From the NCBI GenBank assembly GCA_028287465.1, contig JAQBPO010000088.1:1-37725 (forward strand): DNA of 37,725 nucleotides, written 5' to 3'. A model generated the notes under the pieces. The model worked only from the letters and a program-made list of their open reading frames with translations. It had not been told where the DNA came from and did no database searches. Positions 1 through 12,762 of the stretch are shown here, one piece after another. The stretch is from Fibrobacterota bacterium. Its GTDB lineage: Bacteria > Fibrobacterota > Fibrobacteria > UBA11236. The first letter of the stretch is position 1. Each line of letters begins with the position of its first letter. Made by a program: the position numbers and the translations under genes.

Positions 1-1
1 C

Positions 2-895
2 GGGCAATGCACCATCTGCCACGTGGGCCGCGGCAGCCTGGGTTTCATCACGCCGCAGTTGAACCGTCCTTCCAAGGCCAACGCCTCCGTCAACCAGCTC
101 GCGGATCTCTTCGCGAAGGGCGTCCTCTCCAAGAACCCCCTGGCCGCCAATCCCGCCGCGATGAAATGGGCCGGCCTGGACGATGCGGGCGCGTCCCTGG
201 AAGCGCGCGCGCGCTCCTACCTGGCCGCCAACTGCTCCCATTGCCACGGCAACGGCAACAAATCCTTCACCGGCGTCGACCACGACTTCGATTACCTGAA
301 CGCGAACATGAAGTTCATGTACGATGAGAAGGATCCTTTCGCCTCCGGTCCCTACATGGGCAAGCCTTCCTTCTTCGATCCGACCACGCCCATGCTCATG
401 TATCCCGGACATGCCGACAGTTCCTTCGCGCTCCTGCGCATGCTGACCCGCGGCACCTTCGAGTCCCCGGACATGACTCAGATGCCGCCCCTGGCGACCT
501 ACCAGCCCGATTCCGCCGCCTTGCGGGTATTGGCGGATTGGACCTGCACCGTGGGCAAGAAGCCCGCGGGAGCCGGCTGCAAGCTGCCGGACGTCCCCCA
601 GGATCATTACTGGTCGACGGCCTCCATCGCCCGCCATGGCGGGATCCCGGGCGGAAATGCCGGGTTGCGGGCATCCATCCTCAAGGGCTTTCTCCGGATG
701 GACGCGCCGGGCATGGAAGGGAACGGCTCGGAGACCGCCGATGGCGCGTCGCCCTCCCTCATCGATATCCATGGCAAGGCGGTTCCCTTGCGGCCGGCCG
801 GCCGCGGACGCTATGCCCTTCCGGGAGCCTTGCCTCCGGGAACCTATTTCCTGAGGTGGCGGGGAACATCGATCGCGGTGAGCGCCGGGATCTGA
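2..895 (+). CDS. Diheme cytochrome c-like protein, HNE_0200-like family (5' truncated)
   Basis: The reading frame is open from the window edge, so the start lies outside. Two c-type haem motifs are visible: CTICH at bases 8-22 and CSHCH at bases 231-245. Between them lie QLNRP and NQLA, and after them come a PGHADSSF-like stretch and a MPPLAT-like stretch ending in a W. This pattern fits the conserved HNE_0200 family (TIGR03806), periplasmic proteins that I recall being found beside PQQ- or PVC-type dehydrogenases. The last ~50 residues (IDIHGKAV, then LPPGTYFLRW) look like a FlgD-like or type IX-type sorting tail, suggesting export to the cell surface. The next gene starts 64 bases downstream on the same strand, so the two are probably co-transcribed. 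Likely role: electron acceptor for an exported dehydrogenase. Family assignment is from remembered consensus; the substrate is unknown. Confidence 0.75.
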   Translation, partial: GQCTICHVGRGSLGFITPQLNRPSKANASVNQLADLFAKGVLSKNPLAANPAAMKWAGLDDAGASLEARARSYLAANCSHCHGNGNKSFTGVDHDFDYLNANMKFMYDEKDPFASGPYMGKPSFFDPTTPMLMYPGHADSSFALLRMLTRGTFESPDMTQMPPLATYQPDSAALRVLADWTCTVGKKPAGAGCKLPDVPQDHYWSTASIARHGGIPGGNAGLRASILKGFLRMDAPGMEGNGSETADGASPSLIDIHGKAVPLRPAGRGRYALPGALPPGTYFLRWRGTSIAVSAGI

Positions 896-959
896 TTCCT
901 GGCCGGCGCGGGATGGGTCCCGGCGTCGGCATCGAACTCTTTTTTTCCGTGGGGGACAC

Positions 960-3254
960 ATGATGACATCGAACTTCGGCCGCGCTTTCCGTTCCAACCG
1001 CCCGGGCGCTCTCGGCATCGGGATGGGGCTAGGCCTGGCCGCCGCCGCCTTCTCCATGGCCATGGCCTCCACGGCTTCTGCGGCCGCCCTCAAGATCCCG
1101 CTCACCAAGTCCGGCACCTGCCCGGAACTCAAGCGCGAATCCTTTCCCATGGGCGACAACTTCACGGGACGGTTCCTGAACACGAACACGAGCGACATCA
1201 CCATCCGGAACAATTGGGGCACCATCCAGTCCGCGCTCGCTCCCGAGCAGTCCGTCAATTGCACCCAGGTCCCTACGGGTTTCAAGATCGAAGCCTTCGC
1301 CTCGGAAAAGGAGACCGGCAACATCATATCCCTGATGGGCTTCACCTTCGACGAGCGCGGCCGCATCTGGGCGGTGGAGACCTTCGACTACCCCAACGTC
1401 ATCACCGACCCGTTCGCCGGCCATGATCGCATCGTCATCCTCGAGGACACGGACGGCGATCATGTGGTGGACAAGCATACCGTGTTCGCAACCGGATTGA
1501 ACATCCCCCAAGGCATCGAAATCGTCCCTCAGGGCGTCGTGATCGCCATGACTCCCCATGTGGTGCTGTTCGAGGACAAGAACGGCGACGACAAGGCGGA
1601 CGCGCCCCAGGGCAAGATCCTGTATACCGGATTCAAGAAGGGCGATACCCATGGCGGCATCACCCATCTGCGTTACGGCATGGACAACTGGCTGTACGGG
1701 GACATCGGATACAACGGCGGCGTGGTCGGCGGCGTCACTTTCGGTTCGGGCATCGTGCGCATGCGCCTGGACGGCTCCAAGTTCGAATACGTCGGGCCCA
1801 CCGCGGGCGGGAACTCGGCCGGCTTCGGCATGATGGAGGACGGCCAGATATTCTCCCTGGGAGCCACGGGCGGCGGCAATACCCATTCCCAGCACGCCGT
1901 CATCCCCGGAACGGCGGCCGCCCAGATTTCCGCCTACGGAAACGCCTTCAAGGCCATCACCAAGGATCTGATGCAGGGCGACCAGTCCGGCGGGTTCACC
2001 GCGGCCACGGATCATGAGTTCTATACGGCCCGCCTGTTCCCCAAGGAATATTGGAACCGCGCCGCGTTCGTCTCGGACGGAACCGGCCACCTCGTGAACG
2101 TGGACTTCCTGGTCCCCAAGGGCAGCACCTGGTCGAGCACGCGCGTGGACGCCACGCCCAACATCTACGCTTCCACGGACGCCTGGTCCGCCCCCATCCA
2201 GACCCGCGTCGGCCCGGACGGCGCGGTGTGGGTGCTGGACTGGTACACCTACATCTACCTCCACAACGGCATGGGCCCCTCGGGACCGGGCGCTGGTTTC
2301 GAGGATCCTTCCCTGCCCTACCGCAGCCTGCGCGACCGCACCCGCGAACGCATCTACCGCGTGGTTCCCGCGGACGGCAAGGTCGATCCCATCCTCAACC
2401 TCTCCAAGGCCACGCCCGAACAACTGGTCGCGGCCCTGGCCCATTCCAACATGCAATGGCGCATCGCGGCCCAGGTCCAGATCCTGAAGCGGACCACCTT
2501 GCAGGCGGACAAGGACAAGATGGAATCGATGCTGGCGGACGCCCTCAAGAAGAGCTGGGCCAAGGACGGCGCCGGAATCGACGGCTATGCCCTGCACGCC
2601 TTGTGGACCGCGGAAGGCCTCGGGTTCCTGAAGGATCACGCGGCCACCTGGGATCCCATCCTCAAGGCCCTGCTGCTGCATCCCTCCCCCGCCGTGCGCA
2701 TGAACGTGGCGAAGGCCATGCCGAAGACCGCCGCCTCCGCGGCCGCCATCCGGGATCAGGGCACGGTGAACGCCGAGGAACCCCAGGTCCGCCTCTGGGC
2801 CATGCTCGCTCTGGCGGACATGCCGAAGACCGCCGGGATCAACATCTACACCGCCTACCACAATCTGGACTCCTGGTCCAAGCTTGCCTTCGACAAGGCC
2901 AATGCCGGCGCCGGGATCGCGGACGCGGCCATCGTTCCCGCGGTCCCTCCCTTGCATGCCGTCGAGGCGCCTGCGGTCTCGGCCCGCGAACAGCGCTCCA
3001 TCCCCCTGAAGTCGGATATCCGCTTCGGCAAGATCCGGAACGGCGAGTGGCTGCCCTTCCCGGACGGGGGCCTGGCCGCGGGCGTATTGACCGTTTACGA
3101 TTCCCAGGGCAAGGCGGTCGCGAAGTCCGCCTTCGACGGCGCCGCCTGGTCCGCGCCGGTGCGGGGCCTCAATCGCCCCGTCTACCTTTTCGTCTTCCAG
3201 GAACGCGACGGAGGCCGCATCCAGGGCAAGGTCACGGGCGGAGTGGGGCTCTAA
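960..3254 (+). CDS. PVC-type membrane-bound dehydrogenase-like beta-propeller protein, without its own haem
   Basis: The 764-residue product begins with a signal peptide (hydrophobic run, then ASTASAAA near residues 35-42). A propeller follows with the hallmark FDERGRIWAVETFDYPN (about residues 128-144), repeated DxDGD-type loops, then VGPDGAVWVLDWY, as in the Piru_Ver_Nterm/DUF7133 family of sugar-dehydrogenase-like proteins. Residues ~485-650 are alpha-helical and HEAT-like. The C-terminus (LTVYDSQGKAV, then RPVYLFVF) resembles a sorting or FlgD-like tail. Family members often carry a C-terminal CxxCH haem domain. This protein has only two cysteines and no CxxCH, and the gene before it encodes a diheme protein, so the two may form one electron-transfer unit. 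The ATG at 960 is preceded by a G-rich ribosome site (GGGGGA). A second ATG follows at 963. Substrate not identifiable. Confidence 0.75.
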   Translation: MMTSNFGRAFRSNRPGALGIGMGLGLAAAAFSMAMASTASAAALKIPLTKSGTCPELKRESFPMGDNFTGRFLNTNTSDITIRNNWGTIQSALAPEQSVNCTQVPTGFKIEAFASEKETGNIISLMGFTFDERGRIWAVETFDYPNVITDPFAGHDRIVILEDTDGDHVVDKHTVFATGLNIPQGIEIVPQGVVIAMTPHVVLFEDKNGDDKADAPQGKILYTGFKKGDTHGGITHLRYGMDNWLYGDIGYNGGVVGGVTFGSGIVRMRLDGSKFEYVGPTAGGNSAGFGMMEDGQIFSLGATGGGNTHSQHAVIPGTAAAQISAYGNAFKAITKDLMQGDQSGGFTAATDHEFYTARLFPKEYWNRAAFVSDGTGHLVNVDFLVPKGSTWSSTRVDATPNIYASTDAWSAPIQTRVGPDGAVWVLDWYTYIYLHNGMGPSGPGAGFEDPSLPYRSLRDRTRERIYRVVPADGKVDPILNLSKATPEQLVAALAHSNMQWRIAAQVQILKRTTLQADKDKMESMLADALKKSWAKDGAGIDGYALHALWTAEGLGFLKDHAATWDPILKALLLHPSPAVRMNVAKAMPKTAASAAAIRDQGTVNAEEPQVRLWAMLALADMPKTAGINIYTAYHNLDSWSKLAFDKANAGAGIADAAIVPAVPPLHAVEAPAVSAREQRSIPLKSDIRFGKIRNGEWLPFPDGGLAAGVLTVYDSQGKAVAKSAFDGAAWSAPVRGLNRPVYLFVFQERDGGRIQGKVTGGVGL

Positions 3255-3273
3255 GCTCCCGGCCCGGATCCCT

Positions 3274-3768
3274 TCAAGGCCGCACGGCCACCTTGGTCCC
3301 GTCGGGGCGGATGAGCATGAGCGCATGCCGCCCCGAATCCTTCCACTCCGCGAGCTTCACCTTCTCCGCGCCCGCCTGGGCGTACCAGGCCAGGGTCCCG
3401 GGATCGAACCAAAGGCTCGCCGCAGGGTCCCCGCCCTCCATGCTTGCGCAGATATCCAGGCGATTGGGCGTGGCGATCATGAACCAGGCTCTCCCTTCCC
3501 ATTTCATGGCCTGGATCTCCTTCATATTGGTTTTCAGGGTGGTGGGATCGGATCCGGACCACGACCCGACCAGATTGAAGAGGGAGAATCCGGCGAGGGA
3601 GCCTGAGGCGTAGCTCTGCGCCACCCCCAGCACCGACAGCGGCAGGGAGCGGGCGCCCTCGGCGAAGGAAGGGTCCGGGGATTCCGGCGGGGATCGCATG
3701 GCCGGGGAGCCGCCGTAACATCCGGTCAAGAGCAGGATCGCAAAAGCGGAAAGCATTCTTCGGTCCAT
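3274..3768 (-). CDS. Small lipoprotein of unknown function
   Basis: The ATG at 3768 is chosen because GGAGGA lies about 9 bases upstream and because it gives a short lipoprotein signal (MDRRMLSAFAILLLTGC) with lipobox LTGC. A longer frame exists but has no such signal. The mature protein (about 147 residues) contains alternating beta-type segments, W and G, with no recognised domain. It ends 20 bases from the stop of the convergent dehydrogenase gene. Its start is divergent from the ferredoxin/MBL gene. Function unknown; membrane-anchored location is well supported. Confidence 0.7.
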   Translation of the reverse strand: MDRRMLSAFAILLLTGCYGGSPAMRSPPESPDPSFAEGARSLPLSVLGVAQSYASGSLAGFSLFNLVGSWSGSDPTTLKTNMKEIQAMKWEGRAWFMIATPNRLDICASMEGGDPAASLWFDPGTLAWYAQAGAEKVKLAEWKDSGRHALMLIRPDGTKVAVRP

Positions 3769-3841
3769 GATCGCAATCCTCCGCATAGGCGGGAATGGTC
3801 CCGCCCTGCCGGAAGGAACATAAATTTCCGGACCGGGGGGT

Positions 3842-3866
3842 GAAACAACGGATTGTACATTGTTTC
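3842..3866. promoter_or_regulatory. Inverted repeat in the divergent intergenic region (candidate operator)
   Basis: GAAACAA (3842-3848) and TTGTTTC (3860-3866) are perfect 7-base inverted arms with an 11-base spacer. They end two bases before the ATG of the ferredoxin/MBL gene and lie about 75 bases upstream of the divergent lipoprotein start. No regulator gene is adjacent. The symmetry and position suggest a protein-binding site, but this is unproven. Confidence 0.35.
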
Positions 3867-3868
3867 CC

Positions 3869-4744
3869 ATGGCCCACCCCAAGCGTAGGCTTCCCGGGAA
3901 CGCCGCGGGCGATTTCTACGTGGATGAAACCTGCATCGATTGCGAGACCTGCCGCTGGCTGGCCCCGGAAACCTTTTTCCCCGTGGCGGGGCAATCCGCG
4001 GTCCTCCGGCAGCCGGGATCCCCCGAGGCGAGGCGCCAGGCCCTTTTGGCGGCCGTCGCCTGCCCGACCGCCTCCATCGGCACATTGGCTGCCGCGCCGG
4101 AAATGGCCGAGGCGCGCGCGGCCTTCCCCGTACCCATCGCGGAGGAGGTGTATTATTGCGGTTACCATAGCCCCAAGTCCTTCGGCGCCGCAAGCTACCT
4201 CATCGTGCGTCCGGAAGGCAACGTGCTGGTCGATTCTCCCCGACGTTCGGAAACCCTGGCGGCGCGCATCGAGTCCATGGGCGGGGCGCGCTGGTTGTTC
4301 CTCACCCACGGGGACGACGTGGCCGATCATGGATTCTGGCGCGAACGCCTGGGATGCGAACGCATCCTCCACGTAGGGGACGCAGGGGGATCGACCCTGG
4401 ACTGCGAAAGGATCCTTAGCGGAGGGGATACGGTGGAATTGGCGCCCGATCTCCGGATCATCCCGGTCCCGGGCCATACGGAAGGCAGTTGCGCCCTGCT
4501 CTACCGCGAATCCTTCCTGTTCACCGGGGATCACCTGGCCTGGTCGGAGCGGCGGGGGCATTTGTACGCCTTCCGCGACGCCTGCTGGCATTCCTGGAGG
4601 CGCCAGACCGAATCGATGGGGAAACTCGCGGGTTACGGTTTCGAATGGGTGCTGCCGGGACACGGCCGCCGCTTCCATTCCGATCGGGAAACCATGCGCG
4701 CCCAGATGGAAGAATGCCTGGAGTGGATGCGGGGGCGAGGCTAG
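3869..4744 (+). CDS. Ferredoxin-metallo-beta-lactamase fold fusion protein
   Basis: From the ATG at 3869 the protein is 291 residues. Residues 22-28 carry CxxCxxC, and an ACP at residue 65 completes a 4Fe-4S ferredoxin-like module. The rest is a metallo-beta-lactamase fold. LTHGDDVADH (146-154) is the metal motif, with Asp where the usual second His of HxHxDH sits. PGHTEGS (His203), TGDH (Asp221) and PGHG (His265) supply the other ligands. As I recall, cyanobacterial and plant homologues carry a similar THRDDVADH variant, so this looks like a family trait and not a mutation. Likely a cytosolic redox-linked hydrolase or oxygenase; the substrate is unknown. A TTG at 3860 is an alternative start. 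No clear Shine-Dalgarno sequence precedes the ATG. Confidence 0.8.
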   Translation: MAHPKRRLPGNAAGDFYVDETCIDCETCRWLAPETFFPVAGQSAVLRQPGSPEARRQALLAAVACPTASIGTLAAAPEMAEARAAFPVPIAEEVYYCGYHSPKSFGAASYLIVRPEGNVLVDSPRRSETLAARIESMGGARWLFLTHGDDVADHGFWRERLGCERILHVGDAGGSTLDCERILSGGDTVELAPDLRIIPVPGHTEGSCALLYRESFLFTGDHLAWSERRGHLYAFRDACWHSWRRQTESMGKLAGYGFEWVLPGHGRRFHSDRETMRAQMEECLEWMRGRG

Positions 4745-4766
4745 GCGCCCAGGGTCCGGCCGGGGT

Positions 4767-4916
4767 TCAGATCGTGGACCGGCCCTGCCATACGCGGAAG
4801 AGGATGACCGCGATCGCGGCGACGAGAAGCAGATGCGCGAGCCCGCCCAGGGAAACGGACGTGGCCATCGACACCAGCCATAGCGCGAGAAGAACCGCGC
4901 AAAGCACCCAAAGCAT
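4767..4916 (-). CDS. Small lmo0937-type membrane protein (49 residues)
   Basis: A short minus-strand gene begins at the ATG at 4916, preceded by AGGGGGAT about 6 bases upstream, and ends with TGA at 4767. The protein starts MLWVLCAVLLALWLVSMATS, has a central SLGGLAHLLLVAA segment, then a second hydrophobic stretch and a short basic end (RVWQGR). Two transmembrane segments joined at a conserved GG(L)xHLLL turn are typical of the lmo0937 family. That family is widespread, often stress-linked, and of unknown function. The gene lies antisense to the 3' region of the ferredoxin/MBL transcript. Confidence 0.8.
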   Translation of the reverse strand: MLWVLCAVLLALWLVSMATSVSLGGLAHLLLVAAIAVILFRVWQGRSTI

Positions 4917-4957
4917 TGTAAATCCCCCTGAATCCGATAGACCTATAAATATCTTTT

Positions 4958-4989
4958 AATCCCCCGGCCCGGAGGGATTTCTTTTTTTT
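4958..4989 (+). terminator. Rho-independent terminator after the ferredoxin/MBL gene
   Basis: AATCCC (4958-4963) pairs with GGGATT (4974-4979); further C-G pairs lie inside the stem, with one bulged base. A T-rich run follows (4978-4989, eight Ts at the end). It is on the plus strand, 214 bases after the MBL stop and beyond the antisense small membrane gene. The MBL transcript would therefore run across that gene. Confidence 0.65.
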
Positions 4990-5058
4990 CTTGCGGTCCT
5001 GGAGGTCCGGCGGCCATGGGGCTGGAGGGCATCGGCATGTTACGAACGTATTACACCG

Positions 5059-5093
5059 TTGACATCCGGAAGGATTTGAGTATAATTCCGGAT
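5059..5093 (+). promoter_or_regulatory. Consensus sigma70-type promoter with overlapping inverted repeat (operator)
   Basis: TTGACA (5059-5064) and TATAAT (5081-5086) are both perfect consensus boxes with a 16-base spacer. The predicted transcription start is about 5093. ATCCGGAA (5064-5071) and TTCCGGAT (5086-5093) are perfect 8-base inverted arms separated by 14 bases. They flank the -10 box and reach the start point, where a repressor could block transcription. This is the strongest promoter visible in the window. Confidence 0.8.
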
Positions 5094-5228
5094 ATGACTT
5101 CCGTCGCTATCCGTCTTCCCCTTACCCAGCCGATTTGGCGTTCCGGCCGCGTCGCCATGTGCCATACCATGGCCATGCGCGCATCCGTACACGCGAAATA
5201 CGGGAGGATCAGGAGCGGGTTGCTTTAA
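5094..5228 (+). CDS. Possible leaderless 44-codon leader peptide
   Basis: An ATG begins 7 bases after the end of the -10 box, at or next to the predicted +1, so the transcript would be leaderless. The ORF encodes 44 residues (begins MTSVAIRLPLTQPIW, rich in Arg, ends RIRSGLL) and stops with TAA at 5226-5228. Third-position GC is lower than in the neighbouring genes. No known domain is visible. The stop lies at the end of the 5' arm of an antiterminator-like pairing, which is where a ribosome would influence RNA folding. It could equally be non-coding structured RNA; translation is unproven. Confidence 0.4.
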   Translation: MTSVAIRLPLTQPIWRSGRVAMCHTMAMRASVHAKYGRIRSGLL

Positions 5229-5289
5229 TACGGAGGTTCACGGACCTTTCAAAAGAAGCCCGCTCCCCAGGAGCGGGCTTCTTTTTTTT
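5212..5289 (+). terminator. Terminator with a competing antiterminator arm (attenuator)
   Basis: Terminator: AAAGAAGCCCGCTCC (5252-5266) pairs perfectly with GGAGCGGGCTTCTTT (5270-5284), a 15-base stem with a 3-base loop, and eight Ts follow at 5282-5289. Antiterminator: GGAGCGGGTTGCTTT (5212-5226) can pair with the same 5252-5266 arm in 14 of 15 positions, counting one G-U pair. The two structures are mutually exclusive. The Shine-Dalgarno sequence of the next gene begins 12 bases after the T run. Confidence 0.7.
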
Positions 5290-5312
5290 GCTTTTTTCCT
5301 AGGGAGGCGCAG

Positions 5313-6227
5313 ATGGTTACGGCCACGGTTTCGAACAGGCAGGCAAACGCCGGGGCGGAGAAAAGCGCGGTAAACCGTACCCGTGAGGGAAGCGGATCCC
5401 ATCGGATGCCCGCGCCTCCAGGAAACGGAAAAACCGGAATTCCCAAACCGATGGGGACCGGCCGGTTTCAGGGCCCGGCGGAATCCGGCCTGGAAGGCTC
5501 CTTCCTTCCCGACCCGGAAATCCTGGCGTCCTTCCTGATCAATGCCCTGTACCTTTTCGGCGACCAGGCGATCGCGGCCTATGGAGGGGTGCCGGAGGGC
5601 GTAACGGACAGGTTAACCCGCCTCGGCCACGGCGTCTCGGAAGGGGCCTATTCCGGCGCGGGAAGGAACGATGGCGGACGGGGAGGCAGGTCCGGCGCCA
5701 TGGGCCCTCGCGGCGCCGGAATCCCTCTGCCGCGACCGCTGCGGGGCACCGGGCGCGATCGCGCCTTGTTCCTGGCGAGGGCCTTCGGGCGCGGCGGCGA
5801 CGCCGATATCCTCGCGGGCCTCAAGGCCATGCGCGCTACGGTGCGGCCGGGGGGATTGATCTGCTTCCACGTTTTCGATCGCGATCGCGCGTGGAGCCTC
5901 GTGGGCGAGAGGGCGCAGGCCTGGAACGGAACGCTCGCGCAGGTGCGCGTGGGCTTCGAACCCGGGACGGGGCGTTTGACGGCGCGCCCGTCGGAACCCT
6001 TCGCCCCGGGACTCAGGGCCGAAGGGGGCTGCGGCGCCTATTCCATCAAGGCTTGGAACCTTGCCGAAATCCAGGCCCTGCTCCGGAGCGCCGGCCTGGA
6101 CCTGGAGCGCGCTTACGGCGATTGGGACGGGCGTAGCCCGGAAGCCGCGGGAGGCGAAACGGCAAGGCTGATCCTCGTGGCGGCCAGGCCCAGGCGCGCC
6201 CGAAGGGCGACCCGCGACCGGAGCTGA
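5313..6227 (+). CDS. SAM-methyltransferase-like protein, degenerate N-terminal half
   Basis: The ATG at 5313 is preceded by AGGGAGG (5301-5307) at 5 bases spacing, so it is a well-formed translation start. The C-terminal half fits class I methyltransferases: LFLARAFGRGGDADILAGL, then VRPGGLICFHVFDRD (roughly residues 172-190), and an AEIQALLRSAGLDLERAYGDWDG ending, as in the post-motif strands. The N-terminal ~150 residues are Gly/Arg-rich and show no clear SAM-binding GxGxG motif. The gene may be decaying, frameshifted or highly diverged. It lies directly downstream of the attenuator at 5212-5289 and may be controlled by it. Substrate unknown. Confidence 0.5.
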   Translation: MVTATVSNRQANAGAEKSAVNRTREGSGSHRMPAPPGNGKTGIPKPMGTGRFQGPAESGLEGSFLPDPEILASFLINALYLFGDQAIAAYGGVPEGVTDRLTRLGHGVSEGAYSGAGRNDGGRGGRSGAMGPRGAGIPLPRPLRGTGRDRALFLARAFGRGGDADILAGLKAMRATVRPGGLICFHVFDRDRAWSLVGERAQAWNGTLAQVRVGFEPGTGRLTARPSEPFAPGLRAEGGCGAYSIKAWNLAEIQALLRSAGLDLERAYGDWDGRSPEAAGGETARLILVAARPRRARRATRDRS

Positions 6228-6355
6228 AGCCGGGTCGAGGGGGATTGTTCCCGGATCCGCGGCGACAGTTATCCCCCCACCCCCGGTATCGGGCATTTAT
6301 TTTCCCCATATCGGGAACGGCCGCCTTGGTCCCGAATCCGCCCTTGGAGGCCCTG

Positions 6356-7435
6356 ATGATCGCATTCCTGATATGCCTGGCCATGCTGTTGCCTTTCCGC
6401 GCAGCCGCCCGTTCCGACGCCGCGGTTCCTGCCCTGCAGGCCTCCGTAAGCGACCGTACCGGGCCGCCCGATGCCCCGAACCTGCGTCCGGATCCGCAGG
6501 CCCCGCGCCGCAAGGTTCTCATCATCGGCATCGACGGAATGCGGCCCGACGCCCTCCTCTCGGTAGAGACGCCCAACCTCAAGGGACTCATCCGCGCGGG
6601 CGCCTTCGCCTCGAGCGCAACGGCGGACAGCATCACCCGCAGCGGACCGGGCTGGGCCAGCGTCCTCACCGGAGTCTGGCACGACAAGCATCATGTCTAT
6701 GACAACGTGATCGGGACCTTCCACGGGGACGCCTACCCGGCGTTCTTCAAACGCCTGAAGGAAAGCCGCCCGGACCTGTTCACCGCCTGCATCGTGAATT
6801 GGGCCCCCATCCGCGATCGCCTGATGTCCGGGATCGATCTGGCCCTGGCCCCCGGCAACGACGATTCCGTCGCTTCGCGCGCCTCGAGCCTACTGCTGCG
6901 CGGGGATCCGGACGTCCTTTTCCTGCACTTCGACGCGCCCGATCATGCCGGGCACAAATACGGATTCAGCCGGTTCTCCCCGCCCTACCGCCATGCCGTG
7001 GCCAGCGTGGACAGGCAGGTGGGCAAGGTCATGGAAGCCCTGCAGGCCAGGCCCGGACTCTATCGCGAGGATTGGTTGATCCTGGTGACCACGGATCATG
7101 GGGGCAGCTTCCGCCATCATGGCCGGGACATCCGCGCCCATCGGCGGGTATTCCTGATCGTTTCCGGCAACGACAGCATGCGCGGGACCAGGCTATCCGG
7201 CGTTTCCCTGGTGGATGTGGCCCCAACGGCGATGGCCTTCCTGGGGGTGCCGGTCGACCCGGGCTGGGGATGGGAAGGGAAGGCGGTGGGCCTGAAGGAC
7301 CTGCCGCCGGAAACCATGCAGGCCGAAGGCAGGCGACAGGCGGGAGACGCACAACAGGACGGAAACGGACCACAGGCGGGCGATGTCATCATCCCGGCGG
7401 CTGCCCTGCCGGTCAAGACCCCGGTGGGCGGTTAA
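6356..7435 (+). CDS. Exported nucleotide pyrophosphatase/phosphodiesterase-type phosphatase
   Basis: The ATG at 6356 has GGAGG 5 bases upstream and gives a signal peptide (MIAFLICLAMLLPFRAAARS). The 359-residue protein belongs to the alkaline phosphatase superfamily. IIGIDGMRPDAL holds the first metal Asp (D60). SGPGWASVLTG is in the nucleophile position (probably Ser96). HFDAPDHAGHKYG (from residue 191) and TTDHGG (from residue 246) supply the second metal site. These are the landmarks of NPP-like phosphodiesterases. It probably acts in the periplasm or outside the cell on phosphodiesters or phosphate esters. The tail after ~residue 320 is low-complexity (Gln/Gly/Asp-rich). It ends 7 bases from the convergent response-regulator gene. 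Confidence 0.8.
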   Translation: MIAFLICLAMLLPFRAAARSDAAVPALQASVSDRTGPPDAPNLRPDPQAPRRKVLIIGIDGMRPDALLSVETPNLKGLIRAGAFASSATADSITRSGPGWASVLTGVWHDKHHVYDNVIGTFHGDAYPAFFKRLKESRPDLFTACIVNWAPIRDRLMSGIDLALAPGNDDSVASRASSLLLRGDPDVLFLHFDAPDHAGHKYGFSRFSPPYRHAVASVDRQVGKVMEALQARPGLYREDWLILVTTDHGGSFRHHGRDIRAHRRVFLIVSGNDSMRGTRLSGVSLVDVAPTAMAFLGVPVDPGWGWEGKAVGLKDLPPETMQAEGRRQAGDAQQDGNGPQAGDVIIPAAALPVKTPVGG

Positions 7436-7442
7436 CCGGCTT

Positions 7443-7931
7443 TCAGAGTTCGTCCTCGGGATCGCCCAGGGGGGCGGATTCCTTGTCTCCGATGAAGGAG
7501 GCGGATTCGGCGAGGTGGGCCACCTTCCTCAGCAACAGATCCGGAGTGAAAGGCTTGGGCAGGAATTCGGCCGAGGAATCCCCCAACTCGTCCTGCACGC
7601 CGTCATTGGCGGCATATCCGGAGATGTAGAGGACCTTGATCTCGGGCCGCATCAGGCGGATGCACGAGGCCAATTCGTTCCCGCTCATGAAGGGGGGCAT
7701 CACCTGATCGGCGATGAGGATCTGGATGGGCCCCTCATGGGCGTCCGAGAGGCGCATGGCCTGATCCGAATCGTACGCCTTGAGGACCTTGTAGCCCTGG
7801 GAAACCAGGGTGGCGTCCACCAGGGCGCGGACGGAAACGTCATCGTCAACCAGAAGAACGGTTATCCCGTTGGGACGGGCGCCGGAGAAGGATCCCCCGC
7901 CGCCCGCATTATCGTATGGAAATGGTTTCAT
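7443..7931 (-). CDS. Single-domain response regulator (receiver domain)
   Basis: This 162-residue protein is one CheY-like receiver domain. The acidic pocket is VDDD (residues 28-31). The phospho-acceptor is Asp75 in IADQVMPP. The Ser/Thr switch is in ISGY (Ser104), and the conserved Lys is in LPKPF (Lys126). Short low-complexity flanks precede and follow the domain. It has no output domain, so it must signal through a partner. It starts 9 bases after the sigma factor gene on the same strand, so the two are probably co-transcribed. Partner kinase not visible here. Confidence 0.85.
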   Translation of the reverse strand: MKPFPYDNAGGGGSFSGARPNGITVLLVDDDVSVRALVDATLVSQGYKVLKAYDSDQAMRLSDAHEGPIQILIADQVMPPFMSGNELASCIRLMRPEIKVLYISGYAANDGVQDELGDSSAEFLPKPFTPDLLLRKVAHLAESASFIGDKESAPLGDPEDEL

Positions 7932-7940
7932 GTATTGGGG

Positions 7941-8999
7941 TCAACCTTTGAAGCGTTGGAGTTTGGCCAGACGGGATGGGTGACGAAGACGCTTAAGGGC
8001 CTTCTCCTTGATTTGCCGGACGCGTTCGCGCGTCAGGTTGAAGCGCTGGGCGATCTCTTCGAGGGTATAGGTGGTTTCCAGCCCGATCCCGTAATAGAGA
8101 CGGACCACCTTCTCTTCGCGCTCGTCCAGGCTTCCCAGGATGTCCTTCATCTCTTCGCGGAGGGAGAAGGCCATGGTGCTCTTGTCGGGGCTTTCGACGT
8201 TATGATCCTCGAGCACGTCCTCGAGGCGCCCATCCTCGCCATCCTTTACGGGCGCGTCCAGGGACATGGGCGAAGCGCTCAGCTGGAGGCTTTCATGGAT
8301 CTCGTGGATGCCCACGCCCATCTCCTCGGCGAGTTCCGATACGGTGGGCGCGCGGCCCAGCTTCTGCTCGAGCTTGACGCTGGTCTTGCCCATCTTATGG
8401 ATGGTGCCGACGCGGCTGGGCGGGATATTGATGACGCGGGACTGGTCGGCCAGGGACGAGAGGATGGCCTGGCGGATCCACCAGACGGCATAGGAGATGA
8501 ACTTGAAGTTCATGGTCTCATCGAAGCGCTTGGCGGCGCGGATGAGGCCGAGGTTTCCCTCATTGATCAGGTCTCCGAGGGGCAGGCCCTGGTATTGGTA
8601 ATTGCGGCACACCGCCACCACGAACTTGAGATTGGCCTGGACCAGGGTGTTCAGCGCTTCCTTGTCGCCGGCGCGGATGCGCCTCGCCAGTTCGGCTTCC
8701 TGGGAGAGGGTGAGATTGTTGTTCTGGCTTATTTCCCTGAGATAGGCCGCGAGGCCGGAATCGTCTCCCAGGAACTTGACGGATGCGGACTTCGTTTCCT
8801 TCTTGATGGCCGGGCGCTTTTTGGCGGGAGCCGGGGGGGCTTCCATCGCGGTTTCCGCAGCGGCCATCGAACCGTCTCCGGACGGCGAACCGTCTCCGGA
8901 CGGCGAACCGTCTTCGGACGGCGAACCGTCTCCTGACGGCAGGGGCAGCTCTTCCACCGAAGTGGCGCCGCGTTCTTGTGGTAGGTTGATCTCGCTCAA
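7941..8999 (-). CDS. rpoD: RpoD-like sigma-70 factor without region 1.1
   Basis: The protein has a low-complexity N-terminus, then region 1.2 (GLAAYLREISQ), region 2 (NEGNLGLIRAAKRFD, then FKFISYAVWWIRQAI), region 3, and region 4 ending in a helix-turn-helix (YTLEEIAQRFNLTRERVRQI, then RLRHP). It lacks region 1.1, as do the short primary sigmas of Bacteroidota-like lineages. The primary-sigma role is inferred. The start is uncertain: TTG at 8999 has a good GAGGAG ribosome site 6 bases upstream, while ATG at 9035 has none. I prefer the TTG (352 residues). The N-terminal linker carries four SPSGDG repeats. The response regulator follows 9 bases downstream. Confidence 0.85.
   Translation of the reverse strand: MSEINLPQERGATSVEELPLPSGDGSPSEDGSPSGDGSPSGDGSMAAAETAMEAPPAPAKKRPAIKKETKSASVKFLGDDSGLAAYLREISQNNNLTLSQEAELARRIRAGDKEALNTLVQANLKFVVAVCRNYQYQGLPLGDLINEGNLGLIRAAKRFDETMNFKFISYAVWWIRQAILSSLADQSRVINIPPSRVGTIHKMGKTSVKLEQKLGRAPTVSELAEEMGVGIHEIHESLQLSASPMSLDAPVKDGEDGRLEDVLEDHNVESPDKSTMAFSLREEMKDILGSLDEREEKVVRLYYGIGLETTYTLEEIAQRFNLTRERVRQIKEKALKRLRHPSRLAKLQRFKG
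8869..8940 (-). repeat. Four 18-base tandem repeats inside the sigma factor gene
   Basis: The unit GAACCGTCTCCGGACGGC occurs four times with one or two changes (8869-8886, 8887-8904, 8905-8922, 8923-8940). It encodes SPSGDG-type hexapeptides in the flexible N-terminal region, in frame. Copy number could vary without breaking the gene. Confidence 0.9.
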
Positions 9000-9189
9000 A
9001 ATAGGCTCCTCTGTATAAGGTACCTTCACGGGCATGGGTATTAAATTCTTTATTAGGCGATCTTCAGGCAAGGAAAGACTGGAAAAGTTCCCCGCTGGGC
9101 TTGATCGGGGCCAAAAGAAACGTTTATAGGGTTTCCGCGGCAATTTTCCCGACGTTACCCTGACCGGAGGCCGGCCCGGAAAAACGGGT

Positions 9190-10800
9190 TCAGGGCAAGG
9201 CGATGCGCATGGCCTGCGCCTGGGGACCCGGCGCCTGGACCAGGTAGAGGCCGAAACCCAGGGGCCGGCCCGAATCGTCCCGGCAATCCCACTGGGCCTC
9301 GCCGTTCACCAGGGCCAGGGTGCGCACCAGCCTCCCGGCGGGATCGCGAATCAGGAGATTCCCGATAGCGGCTGCCGATGCCGCGCCGTATCCGGGGATG
9401 GCCTGGAAACGCACGGTCCCATCCCGTCCCGCAAGGACCTTGAATCCGGGGGATGCCGGCGATGCAGGAGTCCGGGGTATCAGGGCCATCGGATCTCCGG
9501 GCCGGATGGGAATGGTATCGGTCACGGCGCGCGTTCCATGGAATACCTTGGTGATCTCCCCCGCCAACCGCAGGTACCAGTCCGCGGGAAGGTCCAGGCC
9601 GTCCGCGTCCAGGGTCAGCCAGTAGCCCTTGTCCGGCGCATCGGCGCGCTTGGGAGCGATCTTGAACATGGCCGTGCCTTCGTCCACCTCGTCGAACATG
9701 GCGATCTTCAGGGCCTCGGCGCCCGCGGCCTTGGCGTTCATGGCCTGGCGCCAGAGGAACTTCCCGCCCTTGCGGGGAATCTGGTTGGCGGGGCCGGCGT
9801 TCAGGTTCTTCCAGGAGAACCCGGGGAAGACCACGGGCACGTAGAAGTTACCGTTCAGCTTCGTTTCGGCCAGATCCGGGATGAGGGACGTCTTCTTCCA
9901 GTTGTCCACGCCGGCGGAATCCCCGTAGCGGCCGACGGCCCAAGGCTGGATCGCGTCCATGGATTTGTACACGGGCTTCCACGCCGGATCGGTACGCGCG
10001 TCCTGGTTGAGCGGGCGCCACCAGGAAGGCGTGCCGCCCATGTAGTAGATGCGGTACTTTTCCGCGGCCCCGGTCTTGAACCAGGCGATGAAGGCGGCGG
10101 CGGCGGCGGGATCGGCGGGCGGGTGGTTATCGGTGAATCCGATCCCCCATACCGAGACGACGGGCTTGCCGTTCTCATGCAGATAGCCCGGCGCGGTGGC
10201 GACCTTCAAGGAGTCGACGAGATACATCCAATCCTTCTTGATGGCGTCGGCGAAGCCCGCGTCCGAGGCGCCGGATACATCGTATTCGATGGCGAAGACG
10301 CGTCCGTACGCGGCGGCGGCCTTCATGGCGTTCTTGAGGACAACGTCCCCGGTGGAGCGCTTCCAGGAGGTCTCGCCCACGAAGCGCTGGATATAGACGC
10401 CGTCCAGGCCGTACTCCTGCATCCAGCGGAAGTGCGCGTCCACGATGGCCGGGGTCTTGGCGGTGAAGAGGTAGGCTTGTTTCGCGCCGATCCGGAAATC
10501 GCCCGCGGGGCAGAGATCCGCGGCCTTGAATTCCCGGAGATCGGGATAGGCATCCACGGTCATGGTCCCTTCCGCGGGAACGCCGTGGGACCAATGGGTC
10601 CAACCGCCGCCCGAAAGCGGACAGTCGAACCATCCTTGGTACCCGAACAGGACCTTGTTCTTCAGGGTGGTCGCATCGATGACGGAAGCCGATCCCGCGG
10701 AGACGCTTCCGATGCCCAGAACGCCGGCGGTCATGAGCGCGATCGCGGCCTCGGCCGCAAGCGCGCGCTTGCCCCGGAACGGAGAGAAAACTTCGGTCAT
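9190..10800 (-). CDS. Exported glycoside hydrolase family 71/99-like protein
   Basis: The ATG at 10800 has GGGGGAG upstream. The 536-residue product has a signal peptide (ALAAEAAIALMTAGVLGIGSV), then VLFGYQGWFDCP, HFRWMQEYGLDGVYIQRF and GRVFAIEYDVSG, a known signature of GH71/99-like proteins. FDEVDEGTAMF near residue 395 carries likely acidic residues. The last ~80 residues (LLIRDPAGRLVRTLAL, then GFGLYLVQ) form a FlgD-like tail. It is the third gene of a minus-strand cluster but lies 201 bases after the GH99-like gene, so it may have its own promoter. Expected to act on alpha-linked glucan or mannan; the substrate is inferred. Confidence 0.75.
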   Translation of the reverse strand: MTEVFSPFRGKRALAAEAAIALMTAGVLGIGSVSAGSASVIDATTLKNKVLFGYQGWFDCPLSGGGWTHWSHGVPAEGTMTVDAYPDLREFKAADLCPAGDFRIGAKQAYLFTAKTPAIVDAHFRWMQEYGLDGVYIQRFVGETSWKRSTGDVVLKNAMKAAAAYGRVFAIEYDVSGASDAGFADAIKKDWMYLVDSLKVATAPGYLHENGKPVVSVWGIGFTDNHPPADPAAAAAFIAWFKTGAAEKYRIYYMGGTPSWWRPLNQDARTDPAWKPVYKSMDAIQPWAVGRYGDSAGVDNWKKTSLIPDLAETKLNGNFYVPVVFPGFSWKNLNAGPANQIPRKGGKFLWRQAMNAKAAGAEALKIAMFDEVDEGTAMFKIAPKRADAPDKGYWLTLDADGLDLPADWYLRLAGEITKVFHGTRAVTDTIPIRPGDPMALIPRTPASPASPGFKVLAGRDGTVRFQAIPGYGAASAAAIGNLLIRDPAGRLVRTLALVNGEAQWDCRDDSGRPLGFGLYLVQAPGPQAQAMRIALP

Positions 10801-11001
10801 CTGGAACTCCCCCTGGACGATCCGGAAACGGAATCGGCCTTTCAGGGCCGATGCGAAACCGTTCTCCAAGGGTAAGCCCGGGAGGGAGCCGATGCACTAT
10901 AAATTTTGGTAAAGCCGGGGCGGGAAACGGTGCGAATCGTAACCCTTCCGATTCCGATCCGCTTGGATTTCTGGAGGTTGTCGAGGGAGGTTGGGGCCGG
11001 A

Positions 11002-12762
11002 TCAGCGGCCGATGCCGGGAAGGCATTCCCGGTGGGTGATGCCGCCGGAGGTTACCGTCAGGAACCGGATGCCTCCGTCCGGGACCATGCCGAGATCGTA
11101 CACGCCGCCGCCGAAAAAGTACCTGGAAGCCAGGGCATGGCCTTGGACGTCGGTAACGGTGATTTCCACGGGTTCCGGGCCCGGAGGGTTCACGCGGAAG
11201 GATGCCGCGGTCCAGGTGACGCGCCAGGATCGCAATCCGGAGGCCGTCACGGCCCGGCGGGAATCGCGGGACAGGGCGACCGAGGCGGTATCCACGGTGA
11301 ACCAGGCATCCGTATCCAGGCCGCCTTTGGCGATGATGGATCCAGCGGCGTCCAGGGAAGGCTTCAGCCAGGCGCCGGTCTTCTTCGACTGCAAAGCGAT
11401 AGTCGCGCCCTGCTTGGATACCTTGAAGATCTCCCAGGTGCCGACGTAATCGTCGATGGGATAAAGGAGGCTGTCCGAATAGACGCCCAGGTATTTCCCG
11501 GAAACGGGATCCTTCAGGGCCGCCTCATCGTTCCCCAGATCGATCAGGATCAGGGACTGCGAGGCCGTCTCGCAACCCGCGCGGACGGTGACATTGCCCT
11601 TGGCCGACTTTTCCACGCACAGGTAGGCGTTCTTGAAAACGGATTTGAGCCGCAAGGGGGTCTGCCTGACCGGAGCCACCGGTTCCTGGCGCGAGTGGGT
11701 CCCTTCCACCACGAAGGCGTCGCGGAAGACCTGCAAGGGCTTGCTGCCATGCTCGACCGAAGGCTCGAGGCTGGTGCCCTCGAACCATTCGTTCCAGCTG
11801 GTGACCATGTAGATCCGGTTCAGGCTGTCGCCCGCGGGAGCCCATTGGGGCAGGGCCTTGATCTCCTTGATGACGGTCCTGAACTGCGCGTCCGATCCCG
11901 GCAGGGGCGGATGGCCGGGCCGGAAATCCTTGTAGTAAGGCATGATGGGCGGGTGGAAGACGGTCTTTTCGGCCCACTTCTGGTAATACGGCATGGCCAC
12001 GCGGCGTTGATAGAAGAGGGCGGAATCGTTGGGCTGGAGCAGGGCCGCCTCGTAGGAGTTGTAGGAGACATAGGAATCGAAGACGCTGAAGCGGTTGCGG
12101 ATGCCGTTGCGGGCCGTCAAGGGATCGGATTGCGTCCCGATGAAGGCCTCGTCCGCCATGAGGTAGACCGGCCCCACGTGGGCGCGCAGGCTGTCCAGGT
12201 GCTGGGAACCGAAGTTCTTGAAGGTGCGCGTTACGTAAACCAGGACCACGGGCTTGCCGTCGATCTTGTAATACGAAGGATGGCTCCAGAAATTGTCCTT
12301 GAAGTAGACGAAGATGTCGATCCACGCCTTACGGACGGCCGCGGAATCGAAATCGACGATGCCGTCCCGCTTCCCGTCCAGGGTGTCCAGCTCGCCGAGG
12401 GGCTCCACCACCATGGCGAACTTGATCTTGTTGTTGTTGGGCGCCTTCATGAAGCCGGACTTCAGGTAGGTATCCGTCACGTCCGTCTTCTTCCACCAGG
12501 ACATGAAGAACACGTCGATGCCGTAATAGGCGGCCGTATCGATATGCTTGACCACCACGGGCATGCTATCGCTCTGGTACCAGCCCAGGGTGGGCGTCAG
12601 TTGCGAGGCCAGATCCTTCCATTTGCCCGGGAAGTACCAGGGATAATAATAAGCGCCTACCGCGTCCTTGCGCTGGGGCAAGGCGGGGACGGCTGATGCC
12701 GGGGCCGCCATAAAGGCGAAGAGCAGGGAGAGTAGGATTCCCCGCCTGAGGGTGATACGCAT
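11002..12762 (-). CDS. Glycoside hydrolase family 99-like protein with beta-trefoil and tail domains
   Basis: Signal peptide MRITLRRGILLSLLFAFMAA, then the GH99 signature AYYYPWY (37-43). SWNEWFEGTSLEPS (322-335) carries the acidic residues (Glu325, Glu328, Glu333) in the position of the catalytic pair of GH99 endo-alpha-mannosidases. Residues ~370-495 look like a fascin-type beta-trefoil (VFKNAYLCVEK, then SGKYLGVYS, then KKTGAWLKPS), often a carbohydrate-binding fold. The C-terminus is a sorting-type tail (ITVTDVQGHAL). AAAGGAAA precedes the ATG at 12762. It begins 14 bases after the GxGYxYP gene stop, so the two are very probably one operon. Activity is inferred from family only. Confidence 0.8.
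   Translation of the reverse strand: MRITLRRGILLSLLFAFMAAPASAVPALPQRKDAVGAYYYPWYFPGKWKDLASQLTPTLGWYQSDSMPVVVKHIDTAAYYGIDVFFMSWWKKTDVTDTYLKSGFMKAPNNNKIKFAMVVEPLGELDTLDGKRDGIVDFDSAAVRKAWIDIFVYFKDNFWSHPSYYKIDGKPVVLVYVTRTFKNFGSQHLDSLRAHVGPVYLMADEAFIGTQSDPLTARNGIRNRFSVFDSYVSYNSYEAALLQPNDSALFYQRRVAMPYYQKWAEKTVFHPPIMPYYKDFRPGHPPLPGSDAQFRTVIKEIKALPQWAPAGDSLNRIYMVTSWNEWFEGTSLEPSVEHGSKPLQVFRDAFVVEGTHSRQEPVAPVRQTPLRLKSVFKNAYLCVEKSAKGNVTVRAGCETASQSLILIDLGNDEAALKDPVSGKYLGVYSDSLLYPIDDYVGTWEIFKVSKQGATIALQSKKTGAWLKPSLDAAGSIIAKGGLDTDAWFTVDTASVALSRDSRRAVTASGLRSWRVTWTAASFRVNPPGPEPVEITVTDVQGHALASRYFFGGGVYDLGMVPDGGIRFLTVTSGGITHRECLPGIGR

Follow-up and report, generated by a model that had tools for sequence, protein, structure and literature searches.

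A probable ribosome-mediated transcription attenuator with a predicted leaderless leader ORF ahead of a methyltransferase-like gene in Fibrobacterota

Introduction

In the classical trp, his and ilv attenuators of Enterobacteria, a leader peptide is encoded ahead of mutually exclusive antiterminator and terminator structures, and the position of the ribosome on the leader is the switch; these leaders have a Shine-Dalgarno sequence and a 1:2 pause hairpin. Leaderless versions have been described in two lineages. The 5′ end of the Sinorhizobium meliloti trpL transcript (peTrpL/rnTrpL) is the leader ATG itself; this leader serves the tryptophan operon and encodes a peptide of 14 amino acids that also acts in trans, and attenuation releases a small RNA (PMC7298713). 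Streptomyces lividans has the leaderless leader peptides leuL, trpL, ilvL and metL, which precede genes for amino-acid synthesis, amino-acid import or tRNA ligases (PMC8079986). According to a 2010 survey, the Proteobacteria and Actinobacteria were the only groups with demonstrated leader-peptide systems before its own examples from Firmicutes (PMC2965389); in the open-licence literature we found no report of leader peptides in Fibrobacter.

Here we describe an element from a Fibrobacterota bacterium, located in a 37,725-nucleotide stretch of DNA (contig JAQBPO010000088.1, the whole of which we call the window), that is very probably a ribosome-mediated transcription attenuator. The initial annotation of this DNA had proposed transcription attenuation combined with repressor control; the attenuation half is upheld by a layout shared by six species, by a pairing that is kept and partly covaries, and by related leaders elsewhere, and the repressor half is not upheld.

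Results

Our comparison set consists of the genome that contains the window and five further species of the genus, found via orthologues of the downstream gene; all six genomes are related, so counts across species are not independent. The element is on the plus strand. Its promoter (5059–5086) is composed of a −35 hexamer TTGACA (5059–5064), a 16-nt spacer and a −10 hexamer TATAAT (5081–5086); it agrees with the consensus at 12 of 12 positions, as the initial annotation stated, and is the sole such site in positions 1–12000 of the window. Both hexamers are kept in all six species, where they read TTGA(C/A) and TATA(A/C)T. Seven nucleotides downstream of TATAAT is the ATG (5094) of a predicted leaderless leader ORF of 44 codons plus TAA (MTSVAIRLPLTQPIWRSGRVAMCHTMAMRASVHAKYGRIRSGLL, 5094–5228; stop codon at 5226–5228); this ORF had been overlooked, and its last codons and stop form the antiterminator strand described below. 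The orthologous leaders begin with ATGAC 6–7 nt from the −10 box and run for 43–48 codons to a stop in an open frame (6/6 species); had the species been independent, which is not the case, six open in-frame ORFs would be expected by chance with a probability of ~2e-5. The leader peptides are only 23–45% identical across species, that is, the constraint on the amino acids is weak, as expected where translation of the leader matters more than its product. The layout as a whole (promoter, ORF, GAGCGGG motif, hairpin, terminator and the same gene) is kept in the six species despite divergent flanks.

Because ATG 5094 is found at the expected start of transcription, a start judged here from position, the mRNA should be leaderless. 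The start of the leader is fixed by three species (G001, G004 and G005) in which the reading frame is interrupted 10 codons ahead of the conserved ATG and contains no other ATG before it. We rejected a 70-aa ORF from ATG 5016, which begins before the promoter and whose frame is closed upstream in three species. Four genes that resemble MarR, TetR or ArsR regulators by sequence have their ATG 6–8 nt past a consensus-like −10 box; leaderless mRNAs may, therefore, be common in the genus.

The end of the leader overlaps the antiterminator 5′ strand (5212–5226), whose core is GAGCGGG (5213–5219). Downstream are a small hairpin that would lie within the antiterminator (5232–5249; stem 5232–5238/5243–5249) and a strand (5252–5266) that is shared by the folds of both states, that is, it is the 3′ strand of the antiterminator and also the 5′ arm of the terminator. 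The intrinsic terminator (5251–5297) is a stem-loop at 5251–5285 with 16 pairs, nine of them G-C, followed by a T-rich tract; it is present in all six species. The Shine-Dalgarno sequence AGGGAGG (5301–5307; a similar GGAGG in 6/6) and the ATG of the regulated gene (5313) follow directly. The strong terminator, the closely following gene and the alternative pairing of 5212–5226 with 5252–5266 had all been recognized in the initial annotation; we find that the alternative pairing is the minimum-energy fold of this segment (−27.2 kcal/mol, z = −3.0), and the whole leader with its terminator folds with z = −5.9.

Conservation of the 5212–5226 strand in relatives was a test set beforehand; all six species retain the strand, and its position does not vary, the distance from the first base of GAGCGGG to the end of the stop codon always being exactly 16 nt. 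The core of the terminator 5′ arm is located 29–32 nt past the leader stop, and the antiterminator fold is obtained in each species. Covariation, which was to be sought in the upstream regions of relatives, is seen in one part of the structure: the small hairpin has a stem at this place in 6/6 species, with two-sided changes at five pairs; however, the core GAGCGGG/CCCGCTC is invariant and carries no information on covariation. In G001 a second helix is UUGU/ACAA rather than the CUU/AAG of the other species; this matches the antiterminator and not the T tract of the terminator. A covariance model of the other five species finds the element in the window at 67.7 bits, and 86% of the cells in the model-fitted alignment are paired, compared with 36–56% in slid versions. 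A classical 1:2 pause helix was considered and rejected; in most species, shuffled leaders pair with the antiterminator strand at least as strongly as the real upstream leader does.

We then modeled the choice between the two structures by combining a ribosome footprint with equilibrium folding. The RNA was taken to the end of the terminator 5′ arm, and a ribosome was placed at each codon with its front edge 15 nt past the start of the A site. In all six species, the probability of the antiterminator in this model is 0.99–1.0 for naked RNA and for ribosomes stalled upstream, and it falls to 0 from approximately two codons before the strand through the stop codon. Of the features that define a leader-peptide attenuator, the locus has those that sequence and folding can show: a short ORF between promoter and terminator (6/6 species), an intrinsic terminator ahead of the regulated gene, a mutually exclusive antiterminator with an invariant core and a covarying hairpin, and, in the folding model for the six species, a ribosome whose position chooses between the two structures.

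The regulated gene (5313–6227, plus strand) encodes a genus-restricted protein of 304 amino acids. The initial annotation called it methyltransferase-like, and this description fits the fold: the predicted structure (mean pLDDT 67.6, moderate confidence) has the overall fold of class I SAM-dependent methyltransferases, with a best Foldseek match to CcbJ (E 4e-11, 13% identity), and NmbA, a bacillithiol methyltransferase, appears as a further match in a profile search (E 8e-5). The description does not extend to the SAM-binding site, where a pattern search for motif I (E/DxGxGxG) found none in the six orthologues; the family is possibly a degenerate enzyme. The protein has no match of its own in Pfam or NCBIfam. 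A search for homologues outside the genus found none among 168 genomes from the phylum (E 1e-8) or in viral contigs, and beyond the phylum it gave a marginal match in Pseudonocardia alone. A variable Gly-rich stretch (residues ~113–145) of the family is predicted to be disordered.

In the five further species, the orthologues of the regulated gene adjoin the same upstream gene. This gene (3860–4744 in the window) encodes a fusion of 4Fe-4S ferredoxin and metallo-beta-lactamase domains; it adjoins the attenuator in 6/6 species and is also found elsewhere in the family. A small membrane protein of the lmo0937 family (NF033488, E 1.6e-10) is encoded between it and the attenuator (4770–4917, minus strand).

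The covariance model of the other five species also gave weaker matches, among which were apparently leaderless leader ORFs before other genes. These sister attenuators were found by pattern and covariance-model searches, with the weaker matches inspected in families f1 and f2; by eye, five of the inspected loci do not have such a leader layout. In most members, Ser-Gly codons (AGC GGN) near the end of the ORF form the antiterminator strand, as in the window element, and the leaderless ORF and a GAGCGGGC-type terminator are also shared; however, the codons enriched in the leaders differ, and the downstream genes are unrelated.

The first group, set A, precedes the gene for citramalate synthase (cimA, best match TIGR00977) at nine loci that have a leader ORF, an antiterminator and a terminator. 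The leaders contain clusters of Ile codons (e.g., MSQRLIAIIRIIIDSGRSGL); in six of them Ile occurs 30 times versus 3.4 expected (p = 5e-20). Nine genomes of family f1 have such Ile-rich leaders before cimA, and none was found at the cimA loci scanned in other families. The set A leaders are apparently leaderless in the genus of the window, and these attenuators have seemingly not been described in Fibrobacterota. The second group, set B, precedes an EamA-like transporter gene (weak Pfam match) at six loci, with terminators; Lys occurs 18 times versus 4.7 expected (p = 2e-6), and Trp is always present. One member of set B is found in another family of the order, and G001 also has such a leader, with its downstream gene unconfirmed. 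Some members of both sets have a low antiterminator probability as naked RNA; the sets may therefore have different default states.

The codon that the window set (the element and its five orthologues) would sense is less evident. Met is the most enriched residue, with 12 occurrences in the six leaders versus 3.0 expected (p = 6e-5, uncorrected for the 20 residues compared and for the relatedness of the sequences); Cys is mildly enriched. In every species, a Met codon is located ~9–13 codons before the antiterminator strand, near the place of the Ile runs in set A; in the window, Met codons 22, 26 and 28 of the leader (5157–5177) are the candidate stall region. In two species the leader has only one internal Met codon, and, unlike the Ile leaders, the window-set leaders have no run of a single codon. 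A SAM riboswitch, as a sign of other control by Met or SAM, was not found in the genome of the window. Judged from these codon counts, Met as the signal is a lead, not a result.

Discussion

The mechanism that we propose is as follows. RNA polymerase would start at the first base of ATG 5094 or right beside it, as its position suggests, and the transcript would open with the leader ORF, the 44 codons of which would be translated by a ribosome. A ribosome at the stop codon (5226–5228) would cover 5212–5226 and block the antiterminator; the terminator (5251–5285) would then fold, and transcription would stop before the gene. With ribosomes stalled in mid-leader or not loaded, 5212–5226 would pair with 5252–5266, and polymerase would read through into the methyltransferase-like gene. 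This direction is derived from the folding model: because the antiterminator is lost with a ribosome at the end of the leader, finished translation of the leader should terminate transcription, and because it is probable with an upstream stall or no ribosome, a stall or failed loading should give read-through. A shortage of charged Met-tRNA is the leading candidate for the signal. The strongest argument that ribosome position also matters in the window element is provided by set A, whose leaders have the codon expected for their pathway.

The same machinery could respond to a different stall, caused by a ribosome-targeting compound, by translation stress or by the nascent peptide, as in antibiotic-inducible leaders. 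Because, in the folding model, any stall upstream lets the antiterminator form, as does a leader free of ribosomes, no particular codon is needed, and this reading would also suit leaders that have no codon run and share a Trp-Arg pair in 6/6 species. However, the sister leaders of cimA clearly bear amino-acid codons, the few conserved residues of the window-set leaders argue against peptide-specific arrest, and in the family search the regulated protein is unlike known resistance enzymes; we regard this stall as unlikely, although a serious contender. Much less probable is an independent gene for a small RNA or small protein that ends at its own terminator and leaves the gene at 5313 outside its control. 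The terminator is strong, and a terminated product of ~195 nt is expected under either reading, but no further promoter-like site is found between the terminator and the gene, the gap between them is short in 6/6 species, and the antiterminator pairing would have no reason to be kept. (6S RNA, which we considered for the length and rod-like fold, was discarded; RF00013 has no match in the genome.)

The initial annotation left the decision to a ligand, a ribosome or a protein, and the evidence favors the ribosome. A small-molecule riboswitch or a protein-binding antiterminator with an incidental ORF would be consistent with a leader RNA that is well folded overall (z = −2.9 for 5094–5240); however, no Rfam family reaches its gathering score in the window and a permissive threshold gave terminator look-alikes alone, in agreement with the earlier statement that no known riboswitch class is recognizable. 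In addition, no conserved aptamer-like structure is found upstream, where pairing with the strand mostly does not exceed that of shuffled leaders, and all six species preserve the ORF with its start, stop and reading frame, so we give this reading very little credence. Least probable of all is control of the promoter by a repressor that binds the palindrome over the −10 box. The 8-base inverted arms reported in the initial annotation are present (ATCCGGAA at 5064–5071 and TTCCGGAT at 5086–5093), perfect and well placed, but the pair occurs once in the 5.8-Mb genome and is missing from all five relatives. Such repeats are common by chance: the window contains 38 perfect 8-bp inverted repeats with a spacing of 4–24 nt, or ~0.06 per 60 bp. 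As a unique, unconserved palindrome of a frequent kind, it was rejected as evidence for a repressor.

Three conserved sets in one Fibrobacterota family, each of them apparently leaderless, take the mechanism of the preferred reading, ribosome-mediated attenuation, into a further phylum; the Ile leaders before a gene of the Ile pathway are an internal positive control, and the window set points to a signal for a genus-restricted, uncharacterized protein. In its most far-reaching form, which we consider doubtful, a Met-responsive leaderless attenuator would, under a shortage of charged Met-tRNA, turn on a degenerate methyltransferase-fold protein that has given up the usual use of SAM; with the attenuators of cimA and the transporter, it would form a lineage-wide Fibrobacterota system in which gene expression is coupled to stalling on leaderless mRNAs.

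The window element resembles the trp, his and ilv attenuators of Enterobacteria in its leader peptide, its exclusive structures and, in the folding model, its ribosome-position switch; it differs in its predicted leaderless ORF and in that no conserved 1:2 helix was found. As in S. meliloti trpL, the transcript is predicted to begin at the leader ATG, and attenuation would release a small RNA; however, the regulated gene is not a tryptophan operon, and the leader has 44 codons, compared with a peptide of 14 amino acids. The S. lividans leaders belong to another phylum, with no shared sequence seen, and the window element has an orphan methyltransferase-like gene and a longer leader with no codon run; in both, however, the ORF starts with the transcript (in the window element by prediction), precedes the regulated gene and is followed by hairpins. 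Because metL of S. lividans is leaderless and contains Met (PMC8079986), a Met leader of the type suggested here is not without precedent.
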